NCBI RefSeq assembly: GCF_000144695.1 | Contig: NC_014378.1 | Location: 2,325,289 to 2,389,288 of the forward strand | Direction: 5' to 3' | DNA from: Acetohalobium arabaticum DSM 5501 | Lineage (GTDB): Bacteria > Bacillota > Halanaerobiia > Halobacteroidales > Acetohalobiaceae | Length of the DNA stretch: 64,000 nt | The notes under the pieces: model-generated | What the model was told of the DNA's origin: nothing | The model's input: the letters and a program-made list of their open reading frames with translations, nothing else | Databases searched by the model: none | Made by a program: the position numbers and the translations under genes | Part shown: positions 43,431 through 62,599 of the stretch, piece after piece | Position numbering within the stretch: position 1 is the first letter of the stretch | Layout: each line of letters starts with the position of its first letter

Positions 43431-43725
43431 ATTGATATATTGTGTCACCTGCAATATTTTCGTATATACCTCTTATTTGTAATTGCCTAGTATAATCAAT
43501 ATGAGTTCATTCATGACATTGCAGGAATAGTCAACATTTCTCTGGAGCGACTCTTAAAAAGAACTTGGAGCCATGGACGGCGGAAAGTTCTTTTTTGAGA
43601 GTGAGTGAGACAGGACGTCGAGCGAATGGCAAGCGTAAGAGATTTGTTGACTATAATCTGCAATATCTCAAACGAACGGTAAACGTTTGCAAGATATCAA
43701 CTCTAAACTGCAACAATATATCAAT
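43431..43725. repeat. Nested inverted-repeat element, candidate structured RNA or MITE
   Basis: This stretch holds no gene but has three nested inverted repeats. Outer: ATTGATATATTG (43431-43442) with its exact complement (43714-43725). Middle: GACATTGCAGGAATAGTCAAC (43515-43535), about 17 of 21 bases complementary to 43646-43667. Inner: a 17-pair stem (43550-43566 with 43585-43602) whose 18-base loop folds again as GCC-ATGGAC-GGC. Two more hairpins follow (43609-43619, and 43663-43697 with CAAACG...CGTTTG). The plus strand carries six GGA triplets between 43523 and 43615. It may be a mobile-element remnant, a regulatory RNA, or partly a bidirectional terminator for rlmH. Confidence 0.6.
43498..43596 (+). 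ncRNA. Candidate GGA-rich small RNA (CsrA-sponge-like)
   Basis: TATAAT at 43491-43496 could serve as a -10 (no good -35), giving RNA from about 43503. The RNA would contain the GCAGGAATAG block shared with 57778-57816, then a long hairpin with GGA-GCC-AUGGAC-GGC-GGA in its apex, ending in TTTTTT (43591-43596). Further on, GACAGGACGTC (43609-43619) resembles a CsrA site with GGA in a hairpin loop. Sequence pattern only; no expression evidence. Confidence 0.4.
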
Positions 43726-53619: not shown

Positions 53620-53737
53620 ACTTAACTAGATAAAATATAGTTATGATAAAACCAGATCAATTGATCAAGATGTTGATTTTATCTCCTTACTAAAAGTAAG
53701 GTAGCTACTCCCCTTTAACAATTTAGATTTATTTTGG

Positions 53738-53835
53738 CGGGAATGTGTAGGAATCGAACCTACCGCGGACAGCTCAAGGCTGGCCCGCCGCCGGATTTGA
53801 AGTCCGGGGTGCCCACCAGGGGCACAGCCATTCCC
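53738..53835 (-). tRNA. selC: tRNA-Sec (anticodon UCA)
   Basis: A 98-nt selenocysteine tRNA, plus encoded CCA at 53735-53737. Seen: acceptor GGGAATG paired with CATTCCC, discriminator G, a six-pair D stem (GTGCCC/GGGCAC) that distinguishes tRNA-Sec from tRNA-Ser, anticodon arm CCGGA-CTTCAAA-TCCGG with UCA, a long variable arm (GCGGgCCAGC/GCTGtCCGC) and T loop TTCGATT. The eighth acceptor pair looks mismatched. It is charged with serine, converted by SelA and brought to UGA by SelB. The only UGA-Sec gene seen in the window is grdH. Confidence 0.96.
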
Positions 53836-54948: not shown

Positions 54949-56109
54949 TTAACCAATAAATCCTTCATCAGTAAGAATCTCCATAGCTTCTTCTTCATCT
55001 TCACTAGCTACCATTACTACAGGTCCTGTACAGCCCATGCCTGTCTCGGCATAGATTCCTTCTTTCCAGAGGGCTGCCTTGGCATCATCTAAGGTTAAGA
55101 TATCTATTCCTGAAATCTCTTCATCTACCGTTTTAGCTGGCGGAGCTGAAACTTCTTCTTCAGCTGCCGAATTACTGCTTTCTATATCTTCAATAATCTC
55201 TTCTAGGCCTGCATCCTTGGCTGCTTTAAATTCTTGTTGGGCTACTTTAGTAAGTTCTCCCTGAGCTGCGTCGGCTGCATAGCGAATGGCTCCGGCAATT
55301 ACTGGTGCTCCGGAGGCTCGGGAAATGATGTTGATAATCTGATCATAGTCTTCGCCTACTCCCGGACCATAACCGTAGCCTAATGATTCGTAGCTGCCTC
55401 CAGTGGTGAAGGCTCCAAATACTTTCATCAATAGATTACCGGTTAAAGTATCTGTTACCATTATATCGGCTGAACCCTGTAAGAGATCATTTCCGCGCAT
55501 TACACAGCCGCCGTCGGCACGAACTGTTTCACTGAAGTTGATTTCATAACCATTATCTTTTAATTCCTTAAGAGCCTGTTCTACCTGTCGAGCGCCGTCA
55601 ACATTCAAAATTCCTACACTTGGATTCTCATTACCTAATGCTTTAGCGGCAGTGATACCGTAAATTGCATTCTTCACCATGGCTGTAATCCGATTAGTAG
55701 CTGAACTACCTGTCGAAGTAGCCAACAGCATCTCTCTTCCTAAACCGGGTGTTACGACTCTTCCTACTGTGGAGACGCCGATGGGAAAGTTAAAGTGATT
55801 GGTTACACAGGCATCTATCTTACCTGCCTGCAGCAATTCTTCCATCTTATCATGGGCTGTCTCTTCACAGTCTGTTTCATAAATTACTGATAGTTCTGTA
55901 TCTACATCAGGACCTATTAACTTTACTTCAAGGTCTTGATGCTTATTATGGGCCATCTCTGCCCCCTTGACTATCTCTTCTACTCCGTGTTCACTACCTA
56001 AAGTGGTAATCCCTACTTTAGTTTTAGCTCCAAACTGACCGGTCTCTATAGCATCTGCCACTTGATTAAAGACATTAGCTACTTTCTTTTTTGCTTCTTT
56101 GTTGGCCAT
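54949..56109 (-). CDS. grdD: Glycine/betaine reductase component C, subunit alpha (GrdD)
   Basis: A 386-residue PlsX-like protein of component C. Together with GrdC it takes the carboxymethyl group from the selenoprotein A of the reductase and releases acetyl phosphate, which yields ATP through acetate kinase. Seen: VGITTLGSEHGVEEIVKGAE, ATSTGSSATNRITAMVKN, GSADIMVTDTLTGNLLMKVFGAFTTGGSYES (PlsX-type core) and the C-terminal TGMGCTGPVVMVASEDEE with a conserved Cys. The start is ATG at 56109 after AAGGAGGTGG; a longer frame to 56133 overlaps grdC and ignores this site. It is the last gene of the reductase region before its terminator. Confidence 0.94.
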   Translation of the reverse strand: MANKEAKKKVANVFNQVADAIETGQFGAKTKVGITTLGSEHGVEEIVKGAEMAHNKHQDLEVKLIGPDVDTELSVIYETDCEETAHDKMEELLQAGKIDACVTNHFNFPIGVSTVGRVVTPGLGREMLLATSTGSSATNRITAMVKNAIYGITAAKALGNENPSVGILNVDGARQVEQALKELKDNGYEINFSETVRADGGCVMRGNDLLQGSADIMVTDTLTGNLLMKVFGAFTTGGSYESLGYGYGPGVGEDYDQIINIISRASGAPVIAGAIRYAADAAQGELTKVAQQEFKAAKDAGLEEIIEDIESSNSAAEEEVSAPPAKTVDEEISGIDILTLDDAKAALWKEGIYAETGMGCTGPVVMVASEDEEEAMEILTDEGFIG

Positions 56110-56122
56110 TTTTCCACCTCCT

Positions 56123-57661
56123 TTATTCTTCATCAGCTAGTAAGGAATCAGATAGGTTACGCATTGCCTTAGCTACGATACCTTTAATCTCGTCTTCACT
56201 GACTCCTGTCTCGTTGCTATCCTGTCCTTCATTTGCTTCCATAATAAAGGATACACCATCAAATAAGTTAGTCATTCTACCTAAAAATAGACTTCCTTTA
56301 CCGATAATCATGCTCCGCTCCATCTCGCCTGCTAACATCTCACGGCGAGCATGGCCAATAAAGGGTACTCCCGATGGAATGTGTCCCTGTGTTGGTGCAA
56401 AGCCGGGCATACCGTGTTCATCTACAAAATTAGGTAGCTCTTTTTTCTCTAAATCTCCCCGCTTAACTCCCAGGGCAGCAATCATCTTATAGTTAGATTC
56501 TGGTACATTACCTGCACCTGCTGGTTCTGTAATATCTGGATTCTGCATTTCTACTGAATATTTATCGATATCTGTAATTCCTAGGTCTATGTTATCCAAC
56601 GGTTCAGTTACTAAAGAAGAGATTACTGCTTGTGGAGAAGACCCTGTATCCACTGTATGACGACCTACAGCATCTGTTCTGATAACTGGACTCTTACCGT
56701 CATCTTCACTGACCAAGACAGCAAAGCCGCCTAAACAGTCTTCTAAAATAGGCATTTCATTCTTAACGTGGTCTTTTCCATTCATACCTAACTTAGCTGT
56801 CGAACCACCGGCTACTACTACTACATTATCAAACATACCTGATTTAACTAAACCAGCAGCATGGATTAAACCATGAGCAGGTCCAGCACAGAAGCTTCTA
56901 GTATCTGAACCAGTAGCCTGCTTACAGCCGGCCATTTCTGCTATTGATTTAGCAAAGTTGCCTCCGCCGCGCTGATTAATATCACCGCAGGCTTCCTCGG
57001 ATACTTCGATTACATAGTCTACCTCGGCTAAATCGATTTCTTCCTGCTTACCTAAGTGGAGCATAGAAAGTATTCCTGAAGCCTTAACTACTGTATTCTC
57101 TAACATAGTATGGGCATTGAGGTTAACATCTGTATCATGGGCCTGTTTAACACAGCCGATTAATTCTCCATCTAAGTATAGAGGTTCAGCAGTATGTTCA
57201 TCTACCATCTCTTGAATGGAATCAACAGCTGTACCTTCTATTTGATCTAAATTATCTTCTAATAAACTATGATCTGCTAATTTATCTTTTACATCTTTGG
57301 CAAAGTCTTCACTTAGTTGTACTAAATCAAAGCTGTCAGCCATCTTCATTACTCCATAAAATTCATCTTCAGGCATAATCTCGCCCCAGTCACTGAACCG
57401 GCTGGCATCATCAACATTATTCTCATACCAAGGACGTTCAATATCCTCTAAATCTTTTATTGACATATTTCCAATATAGGACTGGTTTGGACCATAACTT
57501 ACTACCTCTTCATAACTTCTTAAAAATTCTGGTGCTTGCTTTAGATATTCACTATCTGGATTCTGTGCTCTCTCTGATGTTTGTGTGGATCCATGTTCTA
57601 ATAAAGTATTAGCAGCATGAACTAATACATAACTGCTTCCTTTTAATACTGCTTCACTCAT
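56123..57661 (-). CDS. grdC: Glycine/betaine reductase component C, subunit beta (GrdC)
   Basis: A 512-residue protein with a thiolase/FabH-like fold, partner of GrdD. Seen: SYVLVHAANTLLEHGSTQT near the start, VIEVSEEACGDINQRGGGNFAKSIAEMAG in the centre with TGSDTRSFCAGPAHGLIHAAGLV, whose Cys is the likely acyl acceptor, and FAPTQGHIPSGVPFIGHAR near the C-terminus. Length agrees with known GrdC proteins (about 510). Start ATG at 57661 is six bases after GGAGGTG. It lies 13 bases before grdD. A 413-base gap with a terminator separates it from the thioredoxin genes. Confidence 0.95.
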   Translation of the reverse strand: MSEAVLKGSSYVLVHAANTLLEHGSTQTSERAQNPDSEYLKQAPEFLRSYEEVVSYGPNQSYIGNMSIKDLEDIERPWYENNVDDASRFSDWGEIMPEDEFYGVMKMADSFDLVQLSEDFAKDVKDKLADHSLLEDNLDQIEGTAVDSIQEMVDEHTAEPLYLDGELIGCVKQAHDTDVNLNAHTMLENTVVKASGILSMLHLGKQEEIDLAEVDYVIEVSEEACGDINQRGGGNFAKSIAEMAGCKQATGSDTRSFCAGPAHGLIHAAGLVKSGMFDNVVVVAGGSTAKLGMNGKDHVKNEMPILEDCLGGFAVLVSEDDGKSPVIRTDAVGRHTVDTGSSPQAVISSLVTEPLDNIDLGITDIDKYSVEMQNPDITEPAGAGNVPESNYKMIAALGVKRGDLEKKELPNFVDEHGMPGFAPTQGHIPSGVPFIGHARREMLAGEMERSMIIGKGSLFLGRMTNLFDGVSFIMEANEGQDSNETGVSEDEIKGIVAKAMRNLSDSLLADEE

Positions 57662-57777
57662 ACTTGGCACCTCCATTATTTTATTAATTGATAATATATT
57701 TAAGATTTTCATTAAAATTAACTTTTGGACGCAGACTTACACAAGACTAAAATTGACTAAAGCTTCAAAACATAATT

Positions 57778-57866
57778 AATATGATCATTCAAGATATTGC
57801 AGGAATAGTAAATATTATGTTATAATTTCAGTCTGGGTTGTTTCAGAGTGAAATCTAAATTTTTTC
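57778..57866 (+). ncRNA. Candidate small RNA sharing a leader with the 43498 locus
   Basis: The sequence 57778-57816 (ATATGATCATTCAAGATATT, then GCAGGAATAGTAAATATT) matches 43498-43538 at about 30 of 38 aligned bases. It is preceded by TTGACT (57753-57758) and TAATAT (57777-57782, spacing 18). Downstream ATTTCA-g-TCTG (57825-57835) pairs with CAGA-g-TGAAAT (57844-57854), and ATTTTTTCG follows at once. Promoter, shared leader, hairpin and T6 together would give an RNA of about 75 nt opposite to the grd genes. Confidence 0.4.
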
Positions 57867-57944
57867 GTCACAGTTATTGACTGCTTTCAAAATAGCTTAT
57901 TCAAACCATGAGAGTTTAAATTATTTACAATTAGCAGCAAGAGA

Positions 57945-57976
57945 GAAAAAAGATCTGGAAAGGAGAAACTTCCCAG
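57945..57976 (-). terminator. Terminator after the thioredoxin gene
   Basis: CTGGGAAG (57969-57976, minus reading) pairs with CTTTCCAG (57955-57962) with one G-U pair, followed by ATCTTTTTTCTC. A second hairpin with ATTAAGC arms (58016-58065) lies between the trxA stop and this site. Together they could end the grdI-grdH-BCCT-trxB-trxA transcript before grdC. Confidence 0.72.
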
Positions 57977-58074
57977 GCTGGATTATGCACTGTAACTACA
58001 TAATAATTAGATATCGATTAAGCAGCTCCACCCTATTAGGTGAAATTAGATGAAGCCGCTTAATCCATCAATAC

Positions 58075-58392
58075 TTAAATATGCTGCTTAATCTCTTCCT
58101 CAATCTCTTCAATTGTTAAGTCGTCGCCACTTAAGTGTTCTACCTTTTCTCCATCAACATAGAATACCATTGATGGTAAGCCCATAACCTGCTGGCTCAT
58201 AGCTAAACGGCGGTTACCTTTAATATTTAACTTACAGAACTTCATATCATCGCCATACTTTTCAGCTAAGTCCTCAACTCCAGGCATTAATTCTAAACAG
58301 TGGTCACAACCTTCTCCCCAGTAATCTACCATTACTGGTCCTTCTACTTCTAATACTTCCTCTTCATAATTCTCCTTGTCTACTTCAATCAT
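58075..58392 (-). CDS. trxA: Thioredoxin of the betaine reductase system, GCxxC type
   Basis: A 105-residue thioredoxin. The active site is DYWGEGCDHCLELMP (Cys near residues 29 and 32), not the usual WCGPC. Glycine-reductase-linked thioredoxins are known to have unusual sites, so this fits delivery of electrons to the selenoprotein. The cis-Pro loop MGLPSMVFY is retained. Two acidic patches and the C-terminal EEIEEEIKQHI helix suit a halophile. It is 36 bases after trxB, with GGGGCTG upstream. Confidence 0.92.
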   Translation of the reverse strand: MIEVDKENYEEEVLEVEGPVMVDYWGEGCDHCLELMPGVEDLAEKYGDDMKFCKLNIKGNRRLAMSQQVMGLPSMVFYVDGEKVEHLSGDDLTIEEIEEEIKQHI

Positions 58393-58428
58393 TATTTTCA
58401 GCCCCTTTCAAGTTTATTTTAGTTTGGT

Positions 58429-59622
58429 TTAAATAATCTCTTCTAATTCATCAACTGTAGGTTGAATAAGCTTTTCTACAACTTCGCCATCCTGCAGCTT
58501 AAGCAGAGTTGGAATCTCTGTTACTTCATAACGATTAGAAATTCTCATATTCTTATAAGTATCTATCTTAACTAACTTAGCATCTAAATCCATATTCTCT
58601 AACTTATTTGTCATGTCCATGCTTTCCTCATTAGTAGGACTCCAGAAAGCTACTAATACGTCTTCATCTGCCTCTAATACATTCTCCTGCCAGTATTCTT
58701 CTTCCTCAATATAGCCTCCGGCAGCTGTAGCTGTTGTTGCTCCATCGGCTGCGGCTGTTACTACCTGACGTAGATATTTCTCTCTTACATCTCCGGCAGC
58801 AAAGACGCCTGGTTTACTAGTTTCTAATGTATCATCAACTTTAATATAGCCATTATCTGTTAGTTCCACTGTATCCTCTACAAAGTCTGTGCTGGGAACC
58901 CGACCGATGAAGATAAAGATACCATCACATTCAAAATCAGTTAAGTCACCTGTTTTGATATTCTTAAGGACTGCTTTATCTACTAAGCCGTCGCCTTCGA
59001 TTCTATCTACAGTTGAATTCCAGACAAACTCTATCTTATCATTCTCATAAGCTCTCTCTTGATAAATCTTGTCGGCATCCATAGTTCCTTCCTCATGGAT
59101 GACAATAACTGTTACTTTGCTGGCAAACTTAGTTAAATATAGAGCTTCTTCGATAGCTGAATTACCATTACCTACGACAGCTACTTCTAGATCAACAAAG
59201 AAGTCGGCATCACAGGTTGCACAGTAAGATACTCCTTTACCTTTAAATTCTTCTTCGCCTTCGACGCCTAATCTTCTTGGCTCAGCTCCAGTAGCTAGGA
59301 TTATACTCTTGGCCTTGTACTCAACTCCCTCTTTAGTAGTTACAGTTTTAACAAAGCCATCTGCATCTATCTCTTTTACTTCGCCTTCTTTTATCTCAGT
59401 TCCAAATTTTTCGGCATGTTCTTTAAAATTGTCCATTAACTCAGGAGCGCTAGCATCAAGCACACCAGGATAATTTTCCATCTCTTCATAACTTTTTGGC
59501 TGCCCGCCTACATCGCCTGTTTCTAACAGTAATGTATCTAACTTGGAACGAGAAGCATACATCCCAGCTGATAGACCTGCTGGTCCGCCGCCAATAATTA
59601 ATACATCATATTCTTTATTCAT
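58429..59622 (-). CDS. trxB: Thioredoxin reductase fused to a cysteine-free thioredoxin-like domain
   Basis: 397 residues. The flavoprotein part (1-303) has the FAD site VLIIGGGPAGLSAGMYAS, redox pair in GVSYCATCDADFF (near residue 136), NADPH loop VAVVGNGNSAIEEALYL, and GVFAAGDVREKYLRQVVTAAADGA. Residues 306-397 form a thioredoxin-like domain in which the usual WCxxC position reads FWSPTNEESMDM, with no Cys at all, while the cis-Pro loop TEIPTLLK remains. The domain may act as a docking module. The partner thioredoxin gene is directly downstream. AAAGGAGGCAG precedes the ATG. Confidence 0.93.
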   Translation of the reverse strand: MNKEYDVLIIGGGPAGLSAGMYASRSKLDTLLLETGDVGGQPKSYEEMENYPGVLDASAPELMDNFKEHAEKFGTEIKEGEVKEIDADGFVKTVTTKEGVEYKAKSIILATGAEPRRLGVEGEEEFKGKGVSYCATCDADFFVDLEVAVVGNGNSAIEEALYLTKFASKVTVIVIHEEGTMDADKIYQERAYENDKIEFVWNSTVDRIEGDGLVDKAVLKNIKTGDLTDFECDGIFIFIGRVPSTDFVEDTVELTDNGYIKVDDTLETSKPGVFAAGDVREKYLRQVVTAAADGATTATAAGGYIEEEEYWQENVLEADEDVLVAFWSPTNEESMDMTNKLENMDLDAKLVKIDTYKNMRISNRYEVTEIPTLLKLQDGEVVEKLIQPTVDELEEII

Positions 59623-59692
59623 TTGACTGCCTCCTTTATAACAGAATAAGCATATTTTAAACTTGTACTTATATTTAGTCTCTATATCAAAA

Positions 59693-61273: not shown

Positions 61274-62599
61274 CTAAATTTCTACATTAAATACAGTCTG
61301 ATCTTCAATATCTGTTTCTAAAGCATCTAAAGCTACACCGACTCTATGATAACGTAATTTCCATTGATCATCTTCAGAATCAGCTGGGTCGCCTAGTGGA
61401 TAAGGAATAGAAATAGTTGGTACCATTCTATTTGCTCCTACAGATTCAGCTACTGGAATTAAGTTAGCCATTTGAACAATTGTAATTCCTGTCTTTTCAA
61501 TCTCTTTATATATCGTTGCACCGCAACGAGTACAAGTTCCTCATGTAGAAGTTAATATTACTGCCTGAACATCAGCCTCTAATAGCTCTTCTGCTATTTC
61601 AGCACCCATTCTAGAAGCTTCAGCTTCAGTAGTACCTGTTCCTACTGTTGTGTAGAAATAACCATGCAGCTTTCCAATTCTATCTTCCTCTTCATACTTC
61701 CGCATTGCATCAAGAGGAACTACTCGGTCAGGAACTGCATCAGCAGCTGCTGGGTCATATCCTGCATGGATAGTTCTATATCCTTCTTCTTCTTCTCTGC
61801 TAGGGAATTCATCTAAATCAGAGATATCATACTTACCCCAACGAGTAGCAGATGCAGACTGAATATTATCCGGATTACCTACAGGTACAATACCACCAGA
61901 AGTAACTAGAGCAACTTTAGCTTCACTTAAATCTTCAATTGGATCAGCAATTTCTACTCCCATATTCTCCGGCATAGGTAATTCAGTTTCGAATTCTTCT
62001 CCATTTAACTTTTTAAGCAGCATATCCACTGCCCGTTCAGCCGCTGGAGTTTCATCTTCTAACCAGACTTGATGTCTCTTCCCTCGTAGGAAATAGCCTT
62101 CTTCTTCAGCTGAAAGTAACTCTTCACCATTTAAAATTTTGTTTCCAAAGTCAGCTACCTTCTTCATGTCATCTCTCATTTTAGCTGCACTTGCTCCACC
62201 AGGAAAGATATGCAAATCCTTCTTAAACATGTCTACCCCAGGATTTTCTTCATTCATACAGGTAATTACTGGAACCTCAAATCTTTCCTTAACTGCTTTA
62301 CCTATTGTTCCACAGGCAGATCCATATCTACCTGCTTGAAAGGCTGGACCAGCAATGAAGATATCAAAGTCTATATCTTCTAGAGCCTCTAAGATAGTTT
62401 CTACTGCATCTTCCTCATTAGACCCCATGTAATTATCTCCGCAGATAACTGTATGAGTCACTTCAGCATCCAATAAATTATCTAATAAATTTGCCGGGCC
62501 AACTGTACCTTCTTCAATGCTCGGTGGATAATCTGCTTCTTCCTCACCACCGATTTGCCCAAAGAACTGATTTATATAATGAACTGCTTTTTTACTCAT
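61274..62599 (-). CDS. grdH: Betaine reductase component B, selenocysteine subunit GrdH (UGA at 61541-61543 = Sec)
   Basis: 441 residues when the in-frame UGA at 61541-61543 is read as selenocysteine (Sec353). The segment across it reads ILTST-U-GTCTRCGATIYKEI, the UxxCxxC pattern of GrdB-type proteins. Reading through continues cleanly for 88 codons to a TAA at 61274. Component B binds betaine, splits off trimethylamine and passes a carboxymethyl group to the selenoprotein A. A SECIS-like hairpin starts 11 bases after the UGA. The start is ATG at 62599 after AAGGAGGTGC. GrdH rather than GrdB (glycine) or GrdF (sarcosine) is chosen from context with a BCCT betaine carrier; sequence alone does not decide this for me. 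Confidence 0.93.
61513..61540 (-). promoter_or_regulatory. Bacterial SECIS-like element of grdH
   Basis: Eleven bases after the UGA, TCGTTGC-GGT-GCAACGA (61513-61529, minus reading) forms a seven-pair stem with a GGU apical loop. Distance and loop resemble SelB-binding SECIS hairpins. Confidence 0.8.

Follow-up and report, generated by a model that had tools for sequence, protein, structure and literature searches.

Small mobile repeats are common and their folds have seldom been tested. The bcr1 repeats of the Bacillus cereus group are chromosomal MITE-like elements, not known outside that one species group, for which a conserved secondary structure has been described. Enterobacterial ERIC/IRU sequences (127 bp) and pneumococcal RUP (107 bp) are non-autonomous imperfect palindromes lying between genes (PMC2229807). 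REP sequences measure 20-40 bp, carry a GTAG or CGTC tag and, in REP/REPIN systems with RAYT, are thought to be moved by a Y1 transposase (PMC3733652). GGA hairpins characterize the CsrB/RsmZ-type RNAs: the CsrB repeat reads CAGGA(U/A/C)G, and the site recovered by SELEX, RUACARGGAUGU, lies on short stems (PMC7652899).

The window, that is, the whole stretch of 64,000 nucleotides of Acetohalobium arabaticum DNA analysed here, contains two distant loci that an earlier note had read as possible members of a small-RNA family, each composed of a promoter, a shared leader of about 35 nt and a hairpin followed by six T. The results presented below point to a different kind of object, probably non-autonomous mobile repeats, palindromic and located between genes, that form a family with a constant 125-nt folded core whose folded strand is recognised by a protein. 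The relevant features are the following (window positions, unless preceded by a contig name).

43431-43725, no strand: whole outer palindromic repeat (ATTGATATATTGT ... ACAATATATCAAT) between a PocR-type histidine kinase gene and rlmH, with terminal repeats and flanks tabulated over several copies.
43498-43527, no strand: worn inner arm left by an older layer of the repeat, corresponding to the leader minus its last bases; identified from 24 genomic copies and the likeness of arm and core.
43528-43652, plus strand (the structured strand here): 125-nt core element; 138.3 bits, E 2.9e-33, over positions 1-125 of covariance model CM R1, the training set of which includes this copy.
43529-43543, plus strand: 5' arm of terminal stem P1, pairing with 43638-43652 (15 pairs, 96% of cells paired, 10/15 changed on both sides).
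43552-43598, plus strand: hairpin P2, holding the first T6; apical 3-bp stem 43570-43572/43579-43581, loop AUGGAC at 43573-43578.
43601-43627, plus strand: hairpin P3, interrupted by two tandem G.A mismatches; its loop, AGGAC, is at 43612-43616, and 6/7 pairs are changed on both sides.
43638-43652, plus strand: 3' arm of P1, on the same evidence as the 5' arm.
43653-43702, no strand: right-hand arm of the older layer (CTGCAATATCTCAAACGAACGGTAAACGTTTGCAAGATATCAACT), also worn; its score with the core consensus is 26, the highest among 2000 shuffles being 22.
57778-57808, no strand: second copy of the leader, a worn arm only, without core, as read from the sequence and from the lack of a covariance model match.
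57830-57979, no strand: a different palindromic unit (AGTCTGGG ... CCCAGGCT) containing the second T6, delimited by reading; related units at C1:404240 and C1:1798016.
C1:71308-71543, 432906-433141, 565141-565376, 740440-740676, 805216-805454 and 1668294-1668533: long form of the core in A. arabaticum.
G003:C28:26818-27048 and L189: further long forms of the core, the former in G003.

In the genome of A. arabaticum Z-7288 (2,469,596 bp in one contig; PMC3035264), the DNA search returned 56 core matches, partial ones included, and the covariance model at least 59. Four other members of the taxonomic family gave 1, 10, 7 and 4 DNA matches, the single one being in G001, a genome of the same genus. 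CM R1 detected cores in 13 of 398 genomes of the phylum; run over class and phylum, it revealed a patchy distribution with matches in other classes. The G030 genome (3.9 Mb, one contig) holds at least 59 cores, with outer arms specific to that lineage. A full-length match (E 8e-17) occupies positions 6026-6152 of L202, on a contig labelled as a Nitrospirae MAG, possibly through a binning error. No match was obtained on scanning IMG/VR with the P3 pattern. Rfam left the core without a match when the window was searched at the gathering threshold and, when three core-bearing loci were searched up to E 1, returned only 16S rRNA and a plant miRNA below threshold, neither of them credible. Gathering-threshold matches in the window included a manganese riboswitch (53623-53725), a tRNA-Sec (53739-53835) and a SECIS_4 element (61503-61540). 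We found the repeat described nowhere in the literature, which was covered incompletely.

The two look-alike stretches from which the small-RNA proposal originated do exist and match. A 13-mer, ATTGCAGGAATAG, is identical at 43518-43530 and 57796-57808 and has no third site in the window; allowing up to two mismatches, ATTCANGANATTGCAGGAATAG matches the A. arabaticum genome 24 times as compared with none for the reversed control. At the same stringency the pattern gave no match in the four other family members, the exception being a related arm that adjoins the single core of G001. Nearly every leader copy, when read in context, is followed by the 125-nt palindromic element AGTCAATATGT...ACATATTGACT. 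At the first locus the leader overlaps the core: its final ~10 nt, starting at 43528, already belong to the first core arm. The arm copy at C1:2284825 reads AGTCAATATGTTTCTTTCGCTTGCCATTCATT, the first 32 nt of which are identical to a core arm at 29 positions (counted by eye), and four arms, including the right arm in the window, align with the core consensus at scores that none of 2000 shuffles reached. Judged from these alignments, the leader is the worn arm of an older layer in a nested palindromic repeat and not the part that defines the family. The presumed terminator is the P2 hairpin of the core.

Other elements of the early description fared unevenly. The TATAAT at 43491-43496 and the T6 at 43591-43596 lie where they had been placed, and minus-strand genes do flank both gaps; the T6 of the second locus is also present, at 57860-57865 instead of 57859-57864. 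A hairpin had been reported after each leader. The first is P2, but the second is weak (z -1.25; 23/200 shuffles fold at least as well), and the covariance search of the window gave 43528-43652 as its sole core match, with none at the second locus. Since the second hairpin is weak and is not matched by the core model, the two are not homologous. Relative to the leader, the core of the first locus is oriented opposite to most copies. In the majority of copies, the leader and the structured core strand point in opposite directions; thus, promoter, leader and terminator do not constitute a conserved unit. What survives of the proposal is a genuine repeat family to which the first hairpin belongs; the second locus lacks the core. 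At the paralogous locus C1:1148874 a core is present after the same GCAGGAATA that is found at 57778. That locus is part of a ~4.4-kb duplicate of the reductase region with the thioredoxin gene (C1:1147088-1151500 versus 55259-59639 in the window), in which the core follows the same GCAGGAATA.

Because the arms resemble the core, and because diverged older cores match weakly within the outer units (covariance model, E 5e-5 to 9e-5), units of ~300-700 bp have the look of cores that landed in earlier members of their own family, presumably in that order. The second palindromic unit, AGCCTGGG...CCCAGGCT (57830-57979 in the window; C1:404240 and 1798016), is also repeated in the genome and also occurs nested inside outer units. 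At L092 (C1:2130745-2132099), an IS3-type element with two transposase-like ORFs, recognised by reading, splits an outer arm.

Covariance modelling, one of the checks suggested in the earlier note, brought out a strong structure. The core folds into a three-way junction made of terminal stem P1 and hairpins P2 and P3, the latter with its two tandem G.A mismatches. Folded alone, the window core has a predicted RNA MFE of -48.5 kcal/mol (z -6.16) and the same P1, P2 and P3. In a first alignment (A1; 43 cores aligned by MAFFT without structure, the structure being subsequently derived from it), 96.5% of the cells of 39 pairs are paired and 27 pairs show double changes; the double-change cells number 246, against 78 in shuffles and 5-35 when slid. 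A second alignment (A2) comprises 54 matches from 16 genomes fitted to the covariance model, so that its counts lean toward the model; long or worn copies account for four of the 54 rows and align poorly. Here, 95.6% of the cells are paired and 37/39 pairs show double changes, which amount to 518 cells where shuffles give 132; slid controls lie at 34-45%. In A1, changes on both sides affect 8/12 stem pairs and 2/3 apical pairs of P2. At the four mismatch positions of P3, G.A or A.G is found in 43, 42, 41 and 37 of 43 cores (86-100%). A longer form of the core, of ~236-241 nt, accommodates an extra ~110-nt domain in the apical loop of P2, including a ~13-bp hairpin (CCATAGCCAGCAT...ATGCTGGCTATGG); cores of G030 carry a different insert in the same loop.

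Deviations from pairing are not distributed evenly. Among the column pairs of P1, P3 and the junction pair, 11 contain G-U but not one contains A-C; cells with A-C are confined to P2, mostly beside indels. The tandem G.A of P3 would read as C.T mismatches on the other strand. Since G-U is allowed where A-C is absent, and since the tandem G.A is kept, one strand is constrained. Such a constraint fits RNA or single-stranded DNA, and an end read as duplex gives no reason for it; on comparative grounds the argument for selection is strong, if not absolute, because template-switch correction between the arms could add to the covariation. An elaborate single-strand fold kept across classes while its stems change freely points to a structure-reading protein, candidates for which are an ssDNA transposase or CsrA.

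The gap beside rlmH measures 386 bp in A. arabaticum versus 36 bp at the orthologous position in G001, where the sequence reads through without the element. A MAFFT pair alignment of two grd paralogues misplaced the gap and was left out of the empty-site evidence. All 51 copies examined are intergenic, as would be those of a non-coding MITE: none lies inside a convincing gene, and the four found within ORFs of 91-138 aa were judged to lie in spurious ones. P1 itself supplies terminal inverted repeats of the MITE kind (15 pairs, 96% of cells paired). Strand B is sense to the neighbouring genes in 15 cases, antisense in 20, convergent in 5 and divergent in 5, which reveals no orientation bias. 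The flanks of the outer units are mostly WA...TW; TA is found on both sides in some copies only, AA/TA and TA/TT being common, and the G001 empty site is compatible with TA duplication or with none. Gene contexts, named by reading, include the interval between obg- and yhbY-like genes in G025, the vicinity of truB-ribF-rpsO-like genes in G094 and that of a sugar ABC transporter in G032, G035 and G023. Since these contexts differ, the cores have no common neighbour gene, and a link to a single gene context was rejected. In G032 and G035 the core is close to csrA, apparently at a single orthologous site. Two other members of the family have cores 0.4 and 1.7 kb from rlmH (G002:C32:5223 and 5756; G004:C11:24590 and 22445), closer than copy numbers suggest by chance; rlmH also adjoins the window copy.

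The family is multi-copy and patchy, is absent at the orthologous site of G001, is surrounded by worn arms that resemble its own and is constrained in its fold on one strand. In the mobile-repeat interpretation that we favour, a trans-acting enzyme would spread the copies, which would often land in older ones and thereby generate the ~300-700-bp nested units and the leftover leader arms. The folded single strand, RNA or ssDNA, would be recognised by a protein via two GGA-loop hairpins on short stems.

How the element moves may be viewed in other ways. It could be a REP/REPIN-like ssDNA element, with an HUH (Y1) transposase reading the folded strand and leaving no target duplication. We consider this rather unlikely, even if the one-strand structure with its conserved mismatches and the lack of a clear target duplication at the flanks of outer units agree with it, as does the fact that 13 of the 16 element-bearing genomes carry Y1, A. 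arabaticum with 9 matches. Y1 is not a universal partner, however: it is missing from G001, G094 and G133, all of which bear cores, and the intact A. arabaticum Y1 frames, 135-146 aa, are of IS200-like length. Moreover, the foot of the core lacks a GTAG tag, its ends being TAGTC...GACTA or lineage-specific, and in length the core far exceeds a REP (PMC3733652). A Y1 gene of G030, with an open frame of 254 aa, is 2.4 kb away from one core (3694995 versus 3692515), as would happen by chance roughly once in 14 cases. Still more doubtful is an IS630/Tc1-type MITE like pneumococcal RUP, for which terminal inverted repeats and a TA target duplication would be decisive and the fold a by-product. The terminal inverted repeats, the TA at both core ends, the intergenic location and the length of ~126 bp speak for it. 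Yet none of the 16 element-bearing genomes has a DDE_3 transposase over the cut-off, whereas control genomes do give matches; only G300 shows two weak adjacent DDE_3 pieces, perhaps from a broken gene. Deviations limited to G-U, along with tandem G.A, are also unexpected for ends read as duplex.

The fold could alternatively serve an RNA. The stand-alone small RNA proposed at the outset would possess a promoter, a ~35-nt leader and an intrinsic terminator of its own; its 5' end would be near 43503 and its 3' end at the T-run. The first copy does combine a TATAAT at 43491, a hairpin with T6 at 43591 and a structured plus strand. This reading is nevertheless very improbable: the structured strand opposes the leader in most copies, the T-run, a part of P2, is missing from the G030 and G300 copies, and the second locus has no core. 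Orientation and the loss of the T-run in distant copies were the grounds for rejecting the promoter-leader-terminator unit; a bidirectional terminator as conserved function was likewise rejected, as the G030 and G300 copies lack the A-run and T-run. To our knowledge, no CsrB-like RNA has been established in Firmicutes-type bacteria. A mobile CsrA-binding RNA, whose two C-A(N)GGA(N)-G hairpins on 3-bp stems would bind a CsrA dimer and act as a sponge or a portable UTR site, is a tentative and rather improbable reading. Both hairpins have a C-G closing pair and an A(N)GGA(N) loop. By script count, GGA is present in the P2 loop of 49/54 aligned rows and the P3 loop of 52/54, the P2 loops of two long forms being misaligned; two of the P3 rows are junk, and dropping them leaves 49/52 and 50/52. 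The loops match the CsrB repeat and SELEX site (PMC7652899), and 14 of the 17 element-bearing genomes have CsrA above the cut-off. G094, G133 and G054 do not, however, although G094, in most of its copies, and G133 keep the GGA loops, so CsrA binding can be taken as a lead and not as a result. The sole weak CsrA match of G094 falls in what reads as an S1-domain protein, CsrA is equally common in genomes without the element, and the copies have no orientation bias to genes. The Rfam searches of the window and of three core loci gave no CsrB or RsmZ match. A transposon-like repeat carrying a conserved CsrA-binding RNA module, the spread of which would titrate or rewire a global post-transcriptional regulator in Firmicutes-type bacteria, is an unlikely extension of the same lead.

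Altogether, the element works like a small mobile repeat of MITE or REP type; the features tested exclude it from the GTAG REPs, and a place among the IS630-type MITEs is unproven. By description, bcr1 is comparable as a MITE-like chromosomal repeat and constitutes only a lead. As in CsrB/RsmZ-type RNAs, GGA hairpin loops are closed by C-G on short stems with more than one site per molecule (PMC7652899); the core differs in being a mobile multi-copy repeat, present also in genomes without CsrA over the cut-off. Compared by description, ERIC/IRU and RUP resemble it in size, imperfect palindromy, intergenic location, TA ends, copy number and lack of autonomy (PMC2229807), but the core has no IS630-type partner over the cut-off and displays, across classes, a one-strand three-way fold that combines tandem G.A with a pair of GGA loops. 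Unlike the tagged, 20-40-bp REPs, the core is a tagless three-way structure of 125 nt without a consistent Y1 partner; what it shares with REP/REPIN systems and their RAYT, thought to be moved by Y1, is a strand-specific imperfect hairpin in a mostly intergenic setting (PMC3733652).
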